This document shows, piece by piece, positions 51,543 through 57,677 of a DNA stretch of 64,000 nt (the first letter of the stretch is position 1; each line of letters starts with the position of its first letter). Source of the stretch: Rhodococcus sp. P-2 (GTDB lineage: Bacteria > Actinomycetota > Actinomycetes > Mycobacteriales > Mycobacteriaceae). The notes beneath the pieces were generated by a model. That model searched no databases and was not told the DNA's origin. It saw only the letters and a program-made list of their open reading frames with translations. Made by a program: the position numbers and the translations under genes. The DNA is taken from positions 4,090,053 to 4,154,052 of the forward strand of contig NZ_CP066779.1 in the NCBI RefSeq assembly GCF_016598535.1. The letters are read 5' to 3'.

Positions 51543-53462
51543 GTGGCGGGCCGAATTTCTGACAGAGACATCGCGGCCATTCGCGAACGCACTCGCATCG
51601 AGGACATCGTCGGTGAATACGTTTCACTCAAGCGTGCCGGTGGCGATTCGATCAAAGGTCTGTGTCCCTTTCACGACGAGAAGTCGCCGTCGTTCCACGT
51701 GCGACCCAACCACGGCCTCTACCACTGCTTCGGCTGCGGTGAGGGTGGGGACGTGTACTCGTTCCTGCAGAAGATGGACCACATCAGCTTCGTCGAGGCT
51801 GTCGAGCAGTTGGCCGATCGACTCAGCTACACGATTTCGTACGAGGGCGGTGGGCCGTCCGTTCAACGCGATCGAGGCACCCGTGCACGCTTGATCGCAG
51901 CAAACGCGGCGGCTCAGGAGTTCTACGCCGCTCGTCTGCGCGAACCCGATGCCCAGGCGGCGCGCGACTACCTCACCGAGAGAAACTTCGACGGCGCCGC
52001 TGCACTGCAGTTCGGGTGTGGATACGCGCCCGAAGGTTGGGACACTCTCACAAAACACTTGATGTCCAAGGGCTTCGAGTTCAAGGAACTCGAAGCAGCC
52101 GGGCTGTCCAAAGAAGGCCGACGAGGTCCGATCGACCGGTTCCATCGCCGACTTCTGTGGCCGATCCGCAGCGTCGCCGGTGACGTCATCGGCTTCGGTG
52201 CCCGCAAGCTTTTCGACGACGACACCATGCCGGGTAAGTACGTCAACACGCCGGAAACGATTCTCTACAAGAAGTCTCAGGTCTTGTTCGGCTTGGACCT
52301 CGCCAAACGCGACATCGCCAAGGGGCACCAGGCGGTAGTCGTCGAGGGTTACACCGACGTCATGGCGATGCACTTGGCCGGCGTCAAGACCGCCGTCGCT
52401 TCGTGCGGAACCGCCTTCGGTGAGGAGCACCTCGCGATGCTCCGCCGACTCCTGATGGACGACAGCTACTTTCGCGGTGAAATCATCTACACCTTCGACG
52501 GTGATGCCGCGGGGCAGGCCGCTGCGATGAAAGCGTTCGAGGGTGATCAGAAGATGGCCGGGCAGACGTTCGTCGCTGTCGCGCCCGACGGGATGGACCC
52601 GTGCGATCTGCGTCTGAAGTCCGGTGACGCCGCCGTTCGCGACCTCGTGGCGCGGCGCACTCCGATGTTCGAGTTCGTGGTGAAGTCCATCCTCACCGAG
52701 CATGATCTGGAGACCGCTGAAGGTCGCGTCGAGGCACTGCGTCGTACCGTCCCCGTCGTCGCGCAGATCAAGGAATCAACTCTGCGCGACAGCTACGCAA
52801 ATCTGTTGTGCGGATGGGTCGGTTGGGACGATCTTCCGTCGGTTCGACGACGCGTGCGTGACGAAGCTCGCAAAAGGGCTTCGACGCGCGGATCTTCACC
52901 GGCGCCCAAGCGTCGTCAGGTTGTCGACCCACCTGCTGCCGATGCGCTTGCGCTGCCGATCGGAATCTCCAGGCCCCGGCCCAACGATCCGGCGCTCTCG
53001 ACGCAGCGAGCTGTCCTCAAGGCCGCATTGCAGCACCCTGGCATCGCCGGCAGTGTCTTCGACTCGTTGCCGCCCGAGACATTCACCCACCCCGCTTACG
53101 TTGTCATCAGACAGGCAATGGCTGACGCCGGTGGAACGAGCAAGGGGTTCGGCGGCGCCGAGTGGATCGAAGTCGTCACCAAGGGCGTCGAAGACATGAC
53201 GGTGGCCTCGGTTGTGTCGGAGTTGGCCGTCGAACCGATGCCGTGCGACGAAGACACGGTTCCGCGCTACATCAACGGAGTGCTCGCACGACTGCAGGAA
53301 GCGTGGGTGGGCGAGCAGGTTGCCGACCTCAAATCCAAGCTTCAGCGCGTCTCACCTGCCGCGGCCCCCGAGGAGTACAACTCACTGTTCGGCGACCTCG
53401 TGGCCCTGGAGCAGTATCGCCGACAGCTGCGTGAGCAGGCTGTCGGCGACCAAAGCGTCTGA
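51543..53462 (+). CDS. dnaG: DNA primase
   Basis: 639 residues from GTG 51543, the length of the mycobacterial enzyme. The zinc-binding domain has CPFH at the start and CFGCGEGGDVYSF; the TOPRIM domain has EGYTDVMAMHLAG and TFDGDAAGQAA; the C-terminal part contacts the DnaB helicase. A -10 TAGACT at 51530-51535 puts the transcription start at or next to the GTG, so the mRNA may be leaderless. The much longer reading frame upstream to 51303 lies antisense to the kinase gene. Confidence 0.95.
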   Translation: MAGRISDRDIAAIRERTRIEDIVGEYVSLKRAGGDSIKGLCPFHDEKSPSFHVRPNHGLYHCFGCGEGGDVYSFLQKMDHISFVEAVEQLADRLSYTISYEGGGPSVQRDRGTRARLIAANAAAQEFYAARLREPDAQAARDYLTERNFDGAAALQFGCGYAPEGWDTLTKHLMSKGFEFKELEAAGLSKEGRRGPIDRFHRRLLWPIRSVAGDVIGFGARKLFDDDTMPGKYVNTPETILYKKSQVLFGLDLAKRDIAKGHQAVVVEGYTDVMAMHLAGVKTAVASCGTAFGEEHLAMLRRLLMDDSYFRGEIIYTFDGDAAGQAAAMKAFEGDQKMAGQTFVAVAPDGMDPCDLRLKSGDAAVRDLVARRTPMFEFVVKSILTEHDLETAEGRVEALRRTVPVVAQIKESTLRDSYANLLCGWVGWDDLPSVRRRVRDEARKRASTRGSSPAPKRRQVVDPPAADALALPIGISRPRPNDPALSTQRAVLKAALQHPGIAGSVFDSLPPETFTHPAYVVIRQAMADAGGTSKGFGGAEWIEVVTKGVEDMTVASVVSELAVEPMPCDEDTVPRYINGVLARLQEAWVGEQVADLKSKLQRVSPAAAPEEYNSLFGDLVALEQYRRQLREQAVGDQSV

Positions 53463-53463
53463 C

Positions 53464-53715
53464 CTAGCGGTTTTTCTTCAACTGGTCGTGAGGGACCAGA
53501 ATCGTGGTCTCCTCGTTGATCGGCTTCATCGGCTCGAGCTTGGGCTGAGTACTAAGTGAGTCGGCCAGCTTCTGCCGTGACGCGTCCAACACCTTCTTGG
53601 TGGCCGGACTAGTGGCCACCGCCTTCGCGGCCCGGCTGATCTGCTCGTATCGTGCGCGGCCCGCTTTGGTTCCCAGGACGTACCCAGCTGCAACACCGAT
53701 CAACAAACGCATCAT
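53464..53715 (-). CDS. Small conserved membrane-anchored protein, Rv2342-like
   Basis: 83 residues: a short N-terminal helix (RLLIGVAAGYVLGTKAGRARYEQI) followed by a charged, probably helical cytosolic tail. The GxVLGTxAGRxRYEQI pattern is common in actinobacterial proteins after dnaG. It converges on dnaG with a single base between stops. Function unknown. Confidence 0.75.
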   Translation of the reverse strand: MMRLLIGVAAGYVLGTKAGRARYEQISRAAKAVATSPATKKVLDASRQKLADSLSTQPKLEPMKPINEETTILVPHDQLKKNR

Positions 53716-53851
53716 TCCTGCTTCCCTCCAGCACCGATCGTCCTGACTCCATCCTGCCTGATGACTCGCTGGGCAGGCGATTTGGTACTTCGGTGGAGGA
53801 TTCGCTACAGTTTCTCAGGCAACGCCGGAACGGGCGAAGCGAGCAAGACAA

Positions 53852-53924
53852 TCCCCTGTAGCTCAATTGGCAGAGCTTCCGACTGTTAATCGGACGGTTG
53901 CTGGTTCGAGTCCAGCCGGGGGAG
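53852..53924 (+). tRNA. tRNA-Asn (GTT)
   Basis: Seven-pair acceptor (TCCCCTG with CGGGGGA), D arm with AGCTCAATTGGCAGAGC, anticodon stem TCCGA/TCGGA with loop CTGTTAA (anticodon GTT), and T arm GCTGG-TTCGAGT-CCAGC. CCA is not encoded. It follows dnaG as asnT does in M. tuberculosis. Confidence 0.96.
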
Positions 53925-53928
53925 CAGC

Positions 53929-53964
53929 AAAGCCCCTCACCTGAGAAATCAGGTGAGGGGCTTT
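53929..53964. terminator. Rho-independent terminator after tRNA-Asn
   Basis: AAAGCCCCTCACCTGA, loop GAAA, then the complementary arm ending CTTT and TCTT: a 16-base perfect stem with a U-rich end. It can also serve the converging HAD gene on the minus strand. Confidence 0.92.
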
Positions 53965-53980
53965 CTTGTATTCGTCTGAC

Positions 53981-54604
53981 CTAGTGCGCTCGCAGCAGGT
54001 CCACCGATCGAAGTGCCGATTCGACGTCTGCCGCGTTGTTTGCTTGTTCTGCGAGAATTCCCAGCCGTCGAGCGCTGAGGACGTTCACCGGGTTGTCGTC
54101 GACGAAGAAGGTCTGCTGTGGACGCGCATCGAGAAACTCCAGCGCAGCCACGAAGGCCGCAGGGGCGGGTTTGGTAGCTCCGAGCATGCAGGAGAAAACA
54201 TGCTTGTCGATTGCCGATGGAGTTACAACACTTTCGATGGCGGCCAACAGGACAGGTCCATTGTCGGAGAGCGTGGCGACCACGACGCCCTCGCTTCGAA
54301 GCGCGATTGCGAGAGCGATGACTGCGCGGTCCGGGACGAAGGCTGTCGCCCAGGCTCGGCGTAGGTCGTCGCGGTCACCAGAAAACCCGAGCCGTCGAAA
54401 ACGTTCCAGGATCGCAGTTTCGGAGTGAAGGCCGAGATCGCATTCCTGGTCGAACCCGGACGCGAACACGAGTGCACGGACTTCGTCTTCAGTGACGCCG
54501 ATAGCCGTTGCCAGTTCTGCGGCGCGACGATCGGGCTCGAATCGACACAGCACACCACCCAAGTCGAACAGAACGAGTTCGGGTCGTCCGCTGCCGTTCG
54601 CCAT
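53981..54604 (-). CDS. HAD-family hydrolase
   Basis: 207 residues from ATG 54604; ATG 54625 and TTG 54664 are alternatives. The HAD motifs are in order: FDLGGVLC (D-x-D-like, with Gly in the second position as in many epoxide-hydrolase-type HADs), TLSDN for motif II, KPAP for motif III and FFVDDNPVNVLSARRLG for motif IV. It is a haloacid dehalogenase-like phosphatase of unknown substrate. It is bounded by terminators on both sides, so it is a single-gene unit. Confidence 0.85.
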   Translation of the reverse strand: MANGSGRPELVLFDLGGVLCRFEPDRRAAELATAIGVTEDEVRALVFASGFDQECDLGLHSETAILERFRRLGFSGDRDDLRRAWATAFVPDRAVIALAIALRSEGVVVATLSDNGPVLLAAIESVVTPSAIDKHVFSCMLGATKPAPAAFVAALEFLDARPQQTFFVDDNPVNVLSARRLGILAEQANNAADVESALRSVDLLRAH

Positions 54605-54666
54605 GTCGTAGAGGGTAGGCGTCATCAGTGCCGGTGAACGCGACTCGAAGATGCCGGCGACCAATA

Positions 54667-54708
54667 CGCCGAAAGCCCGACGAAAGTGCTTGCGTCGGGC
54701 TTTCGGCG
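54667..54708. terminator. Hairpin between the Hfq-like gene and the HAD gene
   Basis: CGCCGAAAGCCCGACG and its exact complement form a 16-base stem with a 10-base loop. It follows the Hfq-like gene on the minus strand, with little U-run. It is the probable 3' end of that transcript. Confidence 0.75.
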
Positions 54709-54736
54709 AAACCGTCGAACTGTTCGGCCGGTGCGC

Positions 54737-54934
54737 TTACTTCGCTGCGCGATCCGAAGGCTCGAATAGTCGGATGATGTGGCTGGGGTTGATGTAGTAG
54801 ACACCGTTCGGAGAATTGAGAACGAGAGTGTCTTCGGTGAAATCGGTGACGGTGCCGTTCAGCTTCGCGCCGTCGGACATGATGATCCGGATCGTGGCCT
54901 TCGAGTTCTTGAATTCGGTCAGTGCAAGCTTCAT
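54737..54934 (-). CDS. Small Hfq/Sm-like protein
   Basis: 65 residues from ATG 54934 with MKLALTEFKNSKATIRIIMS at the N-terminus. The rest (DGAKLNGTVTDFTEDTLVL, then NSPNGVYYINPSHIIRLFEPS) has the Sm1/Sm2 pattern: KATIRIIMSDGAKLNGTVTDF is similar to the Hfq NG-KL-G-I--F motif, and YYINPSHIIRLFEPS lies where Hfq has YKHAIS-V-PS. This suggests a five-strand Sm fold that could form a ring and bind RNA. Actinobacteria are generally said to lack Hfq. There is no SD stronger than AGGATC. The longer frame to 55105 is not conserved-looking. A terminator follows; tRNA-Met lies about 180 bases upstream. Confidence 0.65.
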   Translation of the reverse strand: MKLALTEFKNSKATIRIIMSDGAKLNGTVTDFTEDTLVLNSPNGVYYINPSHIIRLFEPSDRAAK

Positions 54935-55111
54935 GTGGTGATCCTGTTCCGTGGGGTGTGCACTCCCACGGTATCGGCTCATCGCGCCTGTGCCGACCAA
55001 CCTTGGAAGACTCGACTCGAAAGAGTGCAACGCGTCACCGCCTGCCCGATTGTGATCCGCGTCGGATGTGCCGGTAACATTCGGATTCGCCGCGATGCAT
55101 CGCATCCGGAT

Positions 55112-55185
55112 GGGGCGGTAGCTCAGTCGGTTAGAGCCGTGGACTCATAATCCATTGGTCGCGGGTTCGAGCCCCGCCCGCCCCA
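55112..55185 (+). tRNA. tRNA-Met (CAT)
   Basis: Acceptor GGGGCGG with CCGCCCC, D arm GCTC-AGTCGGTTA-GAGC, anticodon stem GTGGA/TCCAT with loop CTCATAA (anticodon CAT), T arm GCGGG-TTCGAGC-CCCGC. The CAT anticodon could also be a lysidine-modified tRNA-Ile2; elongator Met is preferred. The first base pair is G-C, so it is not the initiator. Confidence 0.93.
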
Positions 55186-55555
55186 CGTTCGGGCGCCGTG
55201 AGCCCTGTTGCTCCGACTTCAATGACACTTGTCGAAGACCAGAATGCAAACGCAAGGGCAGTTGCCCACTGGTTGTCGGGCTTGAATCGCGAGGCACGCG
55301 CCTACGGTGCGATTGAGTGATCCTTGGTAGTTACCCAAGGAAATGTCGCACCTTCGTCGATCCCAGGCAAGGTGAAGGTCTCGGAACCGGATGCGCAACC
55401 CCTGACAGCGTCGGAGGATCAGTGCCATTAGGTGAGACCGAGGCAGCGACATGTCGGACGATGAAGGAAAGCAGGTACCTATTCAGGTATTTCGGCGTAT
55501 GTGCTCAACGTGCCGAAGTGTCACGCTTTCGATGTGCCTACCGGTGTAGGTACAA

Positions 55556-55589
55556 GGCAGTCGAGCCGTCCCCCCGCGGCTCGGCTGCC
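55556..55589. other. Stable hairpin with a C6 loop
   Basis: GGCAGTCGAGCCG pairs with CGGCTCGGCTGCC (13 pairs, one G-T) around TCCCCCCG. It is in the gene-free stretch after tRNA-Met. A C-rich loop resembles one hairpin of the actinobacterial 6C RNA, but the second hairpin expected for that family was not found. Confidence 0.6.
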
Positions 55590-55874
55590 CCCAACAGGCG
55601 GCATCGGGCCCGAATGGCCGCGTTAGAACTGGCGACTGCAAGTTCCGACTCGGGGTTGGATGCGACTCGGGATCGTAGGTGTAGCTACAGCTCGGTTGTC
55701 CGACGCCACAGGTGTGATCACCGGCCCCATCATGGACAGCCGACTTCAGTCCGAGACTGCGTTCAACGTGAACGATCGAAATCCGTTCGACTGCCGAGCA
55801 ATACACGCTACGTTTCATCGACGCGTTGACCGGGAGCAGACCGTCGGTACCCACTCAATGCGAGGAATAGAAAC

Positions 55875-55908
55875 GGAAATGGGCCCCGCAAGTGCGGGGC
55901 CCATTTCC
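55875..55908. terminator. Strong terminator hairpin
   Basis: GGAAATGGGCCCCGCA and its complement form a stem of about 15 pairs with a tiny loop. T-rich DNA follows on the minus strand (GTTTCTATT) and moderately on the plus strand. It ends an unidentified transcript, either from the tRNA-Met side or from the right. Confidence 0.8.
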
Positions 55909-56164
55909 TTGTCTGAAAAGCGTTGTCGGACGAGGGCTTTCAACGTCGAGGACTTTGTGCTCGGTCTCGTTCAGTTGTTTGATCAGGGTGACGGGAAATA
56001 TTTCTATGTTCCGATTCCATCCTTGTGTACTTCGGTGGTGACTCGGGCTCGATTGTCGTTTTTCCGTGCTCCGTCAATCGTGGAATCCACAGTCCGCGAG
56101 CGCTCAGTAGTTACCTCGATCGGATGCAAAAACCGGGCAATCGGAACAAAACACTTGTCGAAGA

Positions 56165-56189
56165 GTTACATTTGTTGATAAAGTGTAAC
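56165..56189. promoter_or_regulatory. Dyad GTTACA-N13-TGTAAC
   Basis: Perfect 6-base arms extended by TTT and AAA lie around an AT-rich core, about 180 bases upstream of the small hypothetical gene. It could be an operator or part of its promoter. Confidence 0.45.
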
Positions 56190-56366
56190 GACATGCTGAT
56201 AGTCAACAGCAACTTCGAGGCCGCATTACCGGACGCCGACGGGCGCCGGGGGATATCGGTGTGCTGTCGATGGGTGGTGACGCCGCTGTGCGCCGCAACA
56301 CGGATTCGGCGAACTGTGCCGGGTTGGACCCCTGATCCCACGGACCAAAGTAACGGAGAACGTACT

Positions 56367-56720
56367 GTGAAAATCAAGAACTCGATCGCGCCTGGTTTTA
56401 TGGACGATCACGGAAACAGGCTGTTCAGCAACACGATTCGATCAGCTGAGGGTGAGGCTCTGGTCGAGCGGCTGAATACCATGTTCGAGCAAGCGAACAG
56501 GACAGGTCGGGTTGTCGATCAACGAGAACTCTCGACCGTGCTTTATGCGCAGCGATCCGAGGATTCGGCGGGTGACCGGTCGATTTCGGCGCCCGAAAGG
56601 TTGCTGCGTGCAACCGAGGGACTCTCCTACGAATCCTTCTCCCTGTTGATCTTGGCGGCCGAACATTTACTGCGTTCCGAAGGGAAATTCGTCGACCCGC
56701 TTCCCTCTCACGAGGGTTGA
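56367..56720 (+). CDS. Hypothetical protein, possibly EspR-like regulator
   Basis: 117 residues from GTG 56367, with GGAG 8 bases upstream; an upstream extension of the frame has no protein-like character. The segment VERLNTMFEQANRTGRVVDQRELSTVLYAQ followed by SISAPERLLRATEGLSYESFSLLILAAEHLL is helical and loosely resembles the HTH-containing EspR-type proteins (LNrLF...ELs..L...sa..L). This is a weak similarity only. No membrane helix. It is a stand-alone gene after the structured region. Confidence 0.6.
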   Translation: MKIKNSIAPGFMDDHGNRLFSNTIRSAEGEALVERLNTMFEQANRTGRVVDQRELSTVLYAQRSEDSAGDRSISAPERLLRATEGLSYESFSLLILAAEHLLRSEGKFVDPLPSHEG

Positions 56721-56818
56721 CGAGGTCAGTGGGAGCGTCGTCCACAACGACACAGGCTCGCCCAGGCGAGCGTCGAGCCAGGTGCGTGTCACGAGAGCCG
56801 GTGGCAGCCGATCACGGA

Positions 56819-57109
56819 TCAACACGTACCTCGCGCCGCCGCATGAAGTGAATTGACGACCACTGTCTGCTGTCGCGGTGTGTACATAGCCCACATGCTG
56901 GCTGAATCAGCGAGAGCCGGTACGTCGTTCCATCCAGGGCTCTGCAGCCGTGTCAACGTCGCTTCCACGGTTCCGAATGCCTCGAGCAATGCATACGCGT
57001 CGTCACACGTAAAGGCGAGTTCGCGCGGCTCGGCGTCACCCCCGTCCCCGCCACACGCAGTCAGCGTGAGCGCAAGTGGAATCGCGATACCGAGCATGAT
57101 TCGCTTCAT
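56819..57109 (-). CDS. Small secreted lipoprotein
   Basis: 96 residues. The signal MKRIMLGIAIPLALTLTACGG ends in the lipobox LTAC, so the mature protein would start at Cys19 and be lipid-anchored. The mature part has two further cysteines (TCDDAYALLEAFGTV and terminal GTC), likely one disulfide. No family recognised. It is divergent from the DinB-family gene, 49 bases apart. Confidence 0.7.
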   Translation of the reverse strand: MKRIMLGIAIPLALTLTACGGDGGDAEPRELAFTCDDAYALLEAFGTVEATLTRLQSPGWNDVPALADSASMWAMYTPRQQTVVVNSLHAAARGTC

Positions 57110-57158
57110 CGGCCAATCAGAGCAGACCGACTCTGCCCTGGCGGACTATTCTCGATCC

Positions 57159-57677
57159 ATGCCGATCACCCCGGATACAAAGAACTGGACCTGGGTCCTC
57201 GAACGCCCCTGCGCCGAGTGCGGGTTCGATTCCTCCACCGTCGCATTCACGGATGTTCCTGATCTGGTGCGTGGCAACGCCACATCGTGGGTTGAGGTGC
57301 TGGAACGCGAGAATGTGACGGAGCGACCGGACAGTGAAACATGGTCAGCGCTGGAGTATTCCGCCCACGTGCGCGACGTGTTCAGGATCTTCAAGGTGCG
57401 GTTGGAACAGATGCTCCAATTCGACGATCCGACATTCGAGAACTGGGATCAGGACGCAACAGCTGAGTCCGAGCGGTACAACGACCAAGATCCGGCAACG
57501 GTCGCATCGGAGTTGGCGGACGCCGCGGCGGAGGTCGCGAACGCCTTCGAAACCGTGCCGGAGGGCAGCCGCCTACGACGGGGTCTCCGCAGTGACGGAT
57601 CGGCGTTCACCGTCGAATCGTTGGCGGCATACTTCATTCACGATCCGATCCATCACTTGCACGACGTCTCGGCGTAG
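57159..57677 (+). CDS. DinB/MDMPI-like protein
   Basis: 172 residues. It resembles the four-helix DinB-like metalloprotein fold: WSALEYSAHVRDVFRIFKVRLEQML carries one probable His ligand, and FIHDPIHHLHDV near the C-terminus supplies others. Members include mycothiol-dependent enzymes of actinobacteria. CAECGF near the N-terminus is an extra feature. The stop abuts the stop of the converging polyol dehydrogenase with no gap. Confidence 0.8.
   Translation: MPITPDTKNWTWVLERPCAECGFDSSTVAFTDVPDLVRGNATSWVEVLERENVTERPDSETWSALEYSAHVRDVFRIFKVRLEQMLQFDDPTFENWDQDATAESERYNDQDPATVASELADAAAEVANAFETVPEGSRLRRGLRSDGSAFTVESLAAYFIHDPIHHLHDVSA

Follow-up and report, generated by a model that had tools for sequence, protein, structure and literature searches.

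A Rhodococcus protein with a predicted Sm fold and a partial resemblance to Hfq

Does an actinomycete of the genus Rhodococcus encode an Hfq after all? The question is raised by a 65-codon open reading frame (ORF) in a stretch of 64,000 nucleotides from Rhodococcus sp. P-2 (contig NZ_CP066779.1, positions 4,090,053 to 4,154,052), which is called the window here. An earlier note on this DNA had described the product as a stand-alone Hfq/Sm-like protein and, provided that it forms a ring and binds RNA, as a type of RNA chaperone that the phylum was thought to miss. The analysis presented below indicates that the 65-aa protein is an Hfq look-alike with a putative function and not the missing Hfq, as it lacks the amino acids with which Hfq grips RNA. 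Ten of 28 Rhodococcus genomes have it, and no other relative in a set of 61 does, a distribution too narrow for the chaperone type missing from a phylum. Identical proteins are present in R. erythropolis NBRC 15567, R. qingshengii IEGM 1359 and Rhodococcus sp. IEGM 1409, which suggests that the source genome belongs to the R. erythropolis group, and R. globerulus NBRC 14531 and two further strains have a 92% identical one.

The gene and the predicted fold of its product

The minus-strand ORF (Table 1) encodes the 65-aa protein MKLALTEFKNSKATIRIIMSDGAKLNGTVTDFTEDTLVLNSPNGVYYINPSHIIRLFEPSDRAAK, and its coordinates and the quoted Sm1- and Sm2-like stretches were given correctly in the earlier note. 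The ORF is a real gene, coding and under constraint. Comparison with five distant copies gave synonymous differences (pS) of 0.40–0.50 and non-synonymous differences (pN) of 0.044–0.060, as a Nei–Gojobori count uncorrected for multiple hits, and four near copies differ by 4–6 synonymous and 0 non-synonymous changes. The assigned start is correct because the frame remains open for just 77–80 codons in the globerulus-type group, as compared with 128–135 codons in the erythropolis group, and because the ATG and the AGGA that precedes it are identical in all copies. A sigma-70 scan listed no promoter at the conserved TANCGT block further upstream. The gene has its own, conserved terminator hairpin, as had been claimed, although a simple T-tail scan does not list it. 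A segment of 81 nt including the hairpin folds with −39.2 kcal/mol (z −4.8). By eye, the stem differs between subgroups and carries two-sided changes with pairing kept in every genome; in L005 and L006 (numbers with L denote loci) it has a one-base bulge.

Table 1. Features of the locus (positions in the window)
Feature	Position	Strand	Remarks
tRNA-Asn (GTT)	53852..53925	+	far border of variable spot
HAD-type hydrolase gene	53981-54664	-	between 65-aa gene and tRNA-Asn
Terminator-like hairpin	54667..54708	-	3' of 65-aa gene; 16-bp stem, 10-base loop; paired stem in 10/10 genomes
Gene for 65-aa protein (predicted Sm fold, Hfq-shaped)	54737..54934	-	ATG at 54934; stop codon ends at 54737
Shine-Dalgarno-like AGGA	54942..54945	-	identical in 10 genomes; putative function
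TANCGT block	54968..54973	-	33 bases before ATG; in 10/10 genomes; possible -10 box of a putative promoter
tRNA-Met (CAT)	55112..55186	+	adjoins 65-aa gene in seven relative loci scanned (L012-L017, L047)

The product is predicted to be a stand-alone Sm-type fold. The single-chain AlphaFold2 model has an N-terminal helix followed by five strands, with a predicted local distance difference test (pLDDT) score of 82; a prediction without an Sm fold, which the earlier note had named as grounds for giving up its proposal, was thus not obtained. In a re-examined Foldseek ranking of solved structures, with one row per entry and at most 50 rows, all 50 matches listed are Hfq, and the N-terminal helix aligns with the Hfq structures too; archaeal Sm, eukaryotic Lsm and RimP proteins are not excluded by their absence from this list. 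The structure ranking leans towards Hfq.

Comparison with Hfq

With the Pfam Hfq model (PF17209) the 65-aa protein scores 20.7 bits, short of the cut-off of 27, and with the NCBIfam model (TIGR02383) it scores 15.8 bits, short of 61.7; four relatives' copies reach 20.7–21.9 bits with the Pfam model. The match, with a best E-value of 3.1e-4, is confined to the Sm1 half, where DGAKLNG corresponds to NGIKLQG of E. coli Hfq. Alignment with ten Hfq domains shows that the E. coli residues G29, K31, L32, G34 and F39 are kept, whereas the 65-aa family has M, T/S, D and S/A in place of Q8, D40, F42 and K56. Residues Q8, F42, K56 and H57 (E. coli numbers) form part of the proximal pore of Hfq. Of these, Q8, F42 and K56 correspond to M1, D35 and S/A51 in the 65-aa protein, or to P50 for the last in a gapless register. 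The Sm2 motif (Y/F)KHA is absent and YINP(S/A)H stands in its place in the six aligned sequences. The invariant H52 coincides with H57 in the MAFFT register and is displaced by one position in the gapless register, which follows from the structure alignment to 6gwk. In the alignment with Hfq that had been made by eye, the pairing with YKHAISxVxPS breaks down at the K; the H is matched in only one of two possible registers. Features shared with bacterial Hfq are the fold, as predicted, the dimensions of the Sm core, the Sm1 segment and the F39 equivalent; the differences lie in both cut-offs missed, the lost YKHA, the replaced residues and the restriction to one clade.

In profile–profile comparison by hhalign, the 65-aa family scores 28.7 against the ten Hfq domains, 25.04 against the five of these from other phyla and 21.79 against the five actinobacterial ones. 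Column shuffles of the alignment (300) gave a mean of 9.6 with a standard deviation of 2.2 and a maximum of 19.4, and the reversed alignment gave 11.2. The Sm-like resemblance of the protein exceeds chance.

Possible functions of the protein

The reading that we favor, with a probability of roughly 0.4, is that the gene product forms an Sm-type ring whose binding of RNA is altered and which is special to the R. erythropolis/globerulus clade. The barrels would join by their edge strands, β4 of one to β5 of its neighbour. RNA would be contacted, if at all, via the retained DGAKLNG turn, which lies on the distal-face side in Hfq, and the basic helix end KNSK, corresponding to the Hfq rim, could be another contact, with the U-tail pocket of the proximal pore not used. 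From contacts at distal turn and rim in place of the proximal pore it would follow that the protein binds RNA weakly or in an altered way and affects the levels or use of a small number of transcripts in the clade, and is not a global chaperone of small RNAs (sRNAs). The further step, that the clade-specific ring acts as an RNA-binding regulator of the R. erythropolis group through its outer faces instead of the U-tail pocket, is tentative and in our opinion rather unlikely. If true, it would be a home-grown riboregulator in a class where Hfq is held to be absent. For the question of how sRNA regulation works in actinomycetes without Hfq, this short and conserved gene, found in a tractable Rhodococcus and with a product of Hfq-type predicted fold, offers a directly testable candidate. 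If the protein does not bind RNA, it would still be a clear example of an Sm barrel with another use.

Several observations weigh against the favored reading. The alignment used for the AlphaFold2 model held six sequences that are at least 92% identical to the query and therefore contain little covariation. The net charge of the protein is near neutral, with 8 Lys/Arg and 7 Asp/Glu, and the residue corresponding to Y25 of the distal A-site is Ile. The C-terminal domain of RimP (RimP-C) reaches 26.75 with the 65-aa family in hhalign, which is near the score for the ten Hfq domains and above that for either half of them. The best E-value of RimP-C domains with the Pfam Hfq model is also 3.1e-4, so that the Hfq signal of the sequence is unspecific.

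Among the alternatives, the one that survives best is an Sm ring that does not bind RNA and serves as a protein–protein adaptor, like the cyanobacterial Hfq homologue; we consider it improbable, if worth keeping in mind. The Hfq-like predicted fold with replaced proximal-pore residues would be consistent with such a ring. The cyanobacterial Hfq homologue reportedly acts through the type IV pilus motor; a literature search for this link found no paper. This homologue is the nearest precedent for the 65-aa protein, also under the favored reading: the title of a reference cited in PMC9037510 speaks of 'altered RNA-binding properties', and this review mentions proteins of equivalent function and weak homology to Hfq in Cyanobacteria. 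However, no partner gene co-occurs next door to the 65-aa gene, since the next gene, depending on the clade, is a HAD hydrolase gene, a HicB-like ORF or directly tRNA-Asn. The models PF21979 (Hfq_1) and NF047718 (Hfq_rel_Cyano), of which the former is probably cyanobacterial as well, did not list the 65-aa protein at E up to 10 in a search whose filters drop most matches above ~0.1, and this distinguishes it from the cyanobacterial Hfq-related protein.

The next alternative, which is also improbable and which we rank below the adaptor ring, is a generic small SH3/Sm-type barrel that occurs as a monomer or dimer, perhaps derived from a RimP C-terminal-like or other barrel, so that the link to Hfq is one of fold only. 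The hhalign score of RimP-C with the 65-aa family fits this, as does the score of 35.8 between RimP-C and Hfq themselves. Moreover, seven RimP-C ORFs from the same class score 14.3–19.8 bits with the Pfam Hfq model as compared with 19.9 for the 65-aa protein in the same search, although this RimP set was chosen by its own Hfq match and is biased towards Hfq. Against a generic barrel, the 50 matches listed in the structure ranking are all Hfq, and the N-terminal helix aligns as well. The RimP-C model PF17384, which matches all seven controls, does not list the 65-aa protein at E up to 10. A small barrel is common to both, but in RimP it is preceded by an additional N-terminal domain, whereas the 65-aa protein stands alone with a conserved start; the profile match spans 57 columns for Hfq and 36 for RimP-C. 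From these scores, the sequence assigns the protein to the Sm/small-barrel superfamily but not to Hfq in particular. A better match to an unrelated barrel family was the other ground for doubt that had been named; by profile the protein is about equally near to RimP-C and to Hfq.

That the protein is a true, very divergent Hfq orthologue and a classic sRNA–mRNA chaperone would agree with the fold and the Sm1 match, but is highly improbable in view of the missed score cut-offs, the replacement of YKHA, Q8, D40, F42 and K56, the narrow clade, and the lack of a homologue in the tRNA-bounded spot of four other Rhodococcus genomes. What stands of the earlier proposal is the stand-alone Sm fold, by prediction, and not the identity as Hfq.

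Occurrence, origin and surroundings of the gene

The statement that Actinobacteria lack Hfq holds in the class sample, but not for the whole phylum as drawn by GTDB, in which single genomes may be contaminated. Matches above the Pfam cut-off were absent from all 296 genomes searched in the class and present in 5 of 396 for the phylum; the two samples overlap, and among 14 control genomes the model recovered Hfq in 5. Mycobacteria are described as lacking Hfq in a passage of PMC3774663. A literature search returned no title on an Hfq or Sm protein of Rhodococcus among the matches listed. The five phylum genomes with Hfq all belong to one class (5 of 36 genomes searched, 0.8–2.8 Mb), four of them to one family. 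The Hfq domains lie on the C-terminal side of their proteins (L082:804-1271 (+), L083:1156-1755 (+) and L084–L086) and score 38–51 bits; the proteins have an FKHAIK motif and an N-terminal CxxC...CxxC stretch. A search for literature combining Hfq, zinc finger and Actinobacteriota found nothing. The same class, different from that of Rhodococcus, contains a stand-alone 73-aa Sm-like ORF (L087:1456-1677 (−), G575), followed by a 354-aa ORF, which resembles the Rhodococcus protein in size, in lacking YKHA and in its Pfam Hfq score of 21.9 bits; its sequence and neighbours are different and a relationship is undemonstrated.

The ancestor of the erythropolis/globerulus clade is the most likely point at which the 65-aa gene was acquired or arose, since it occupies a variable spot bounded by tRNA genes and no divergent copy was found in four genomes that lack the gene and were covered from one tRNA to the other. 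An hmmsearch for a divergent homologue in other Rhodococcus, run on every frame of 16 loci around the DinB neighbour, yielded nothing better than E 4.3; both tRNAs were located by ARAGORN in five of these loci (L065, L069, L070, L074 and L075, with L065 and L075 from one genome). Over the class and phylum genomes the other matches are weak, the best being L018 (E 2e-4). Both L018:1150-1860 (+) and L021 (E 0.049) encode proteins of ~240 aa from one actinomycete family, without a Pfam match, in the interior of which a segment weakly resembles the 65-aa protein. The remaining weak matches of that search lie inside ORFs of 288–684 aa and look like chance, as do L089 and L090.

The earlier note had placed the gene between two tRNA genes. 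Both indeed flank it, but the HAD-type hydrolase gene lies between it and tRNA-Asn. In all seven loci scanned (L012–L017, L047) the gene and tRNA-Met are divergently oriented. The interval towards tRNA-Asn varies: it contains a HAD hydrolase gene in 5 of 28 genomes, a HicB-like ORF (17.9 bits, below the Pfam cut-off of 27) together with others in R. globerulus (L015), and ~170 bases with no further gene in L016 and L017.

A structured stretch behind tRNA-Met had been proposed to encode a small RNA. Positions 55187-55640 do fold better than 100 shuffles (z −4.05), and a strong hairpin is present at 55869-55914, within the stretch 55187-55914. However, an Rfam scan of 53400-57200 reached the gathering score for the two tRNAs only and found no family for this stretch. 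Its conservation within the erythropolis group is patchy, and R. globerulus L015 lacks it, having tRNA-Met next to the DinB gene.

An origin of the 65-aa gene from a phage or plasmid was considered and rejected. Searches with tblastn gave no match among phages, and the plasmid matches were limited to seven Azospirillum records at E 8. The sole match on a viral contig is L047, from a sister strain, which is best read as host DNA beside a prophage. Its likeness to the window (98% identity) runs from 55186 down to 53888 only, between the end of tRNA-Met and a point inside tRNA-Asn, and includes the 65-aa gene and the HAD gene; other matches are two self-matches of hairpins, and the ORFs analysed in L047 end at tRNA-Met. 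After the likeness ends, a phage integrase ORF follows (L047:4391-5299), and ARAGORN did not find a whole tRNA-Asn in L047. A likeness that ends inside tRNA-Asn and is followed by an integrase is as expected for a prophage in tRNA-Asn, and suggests that the 3' half of this tRNA gene contains a site of prophage attachment (window 53888-53925; L047:3990-5299).
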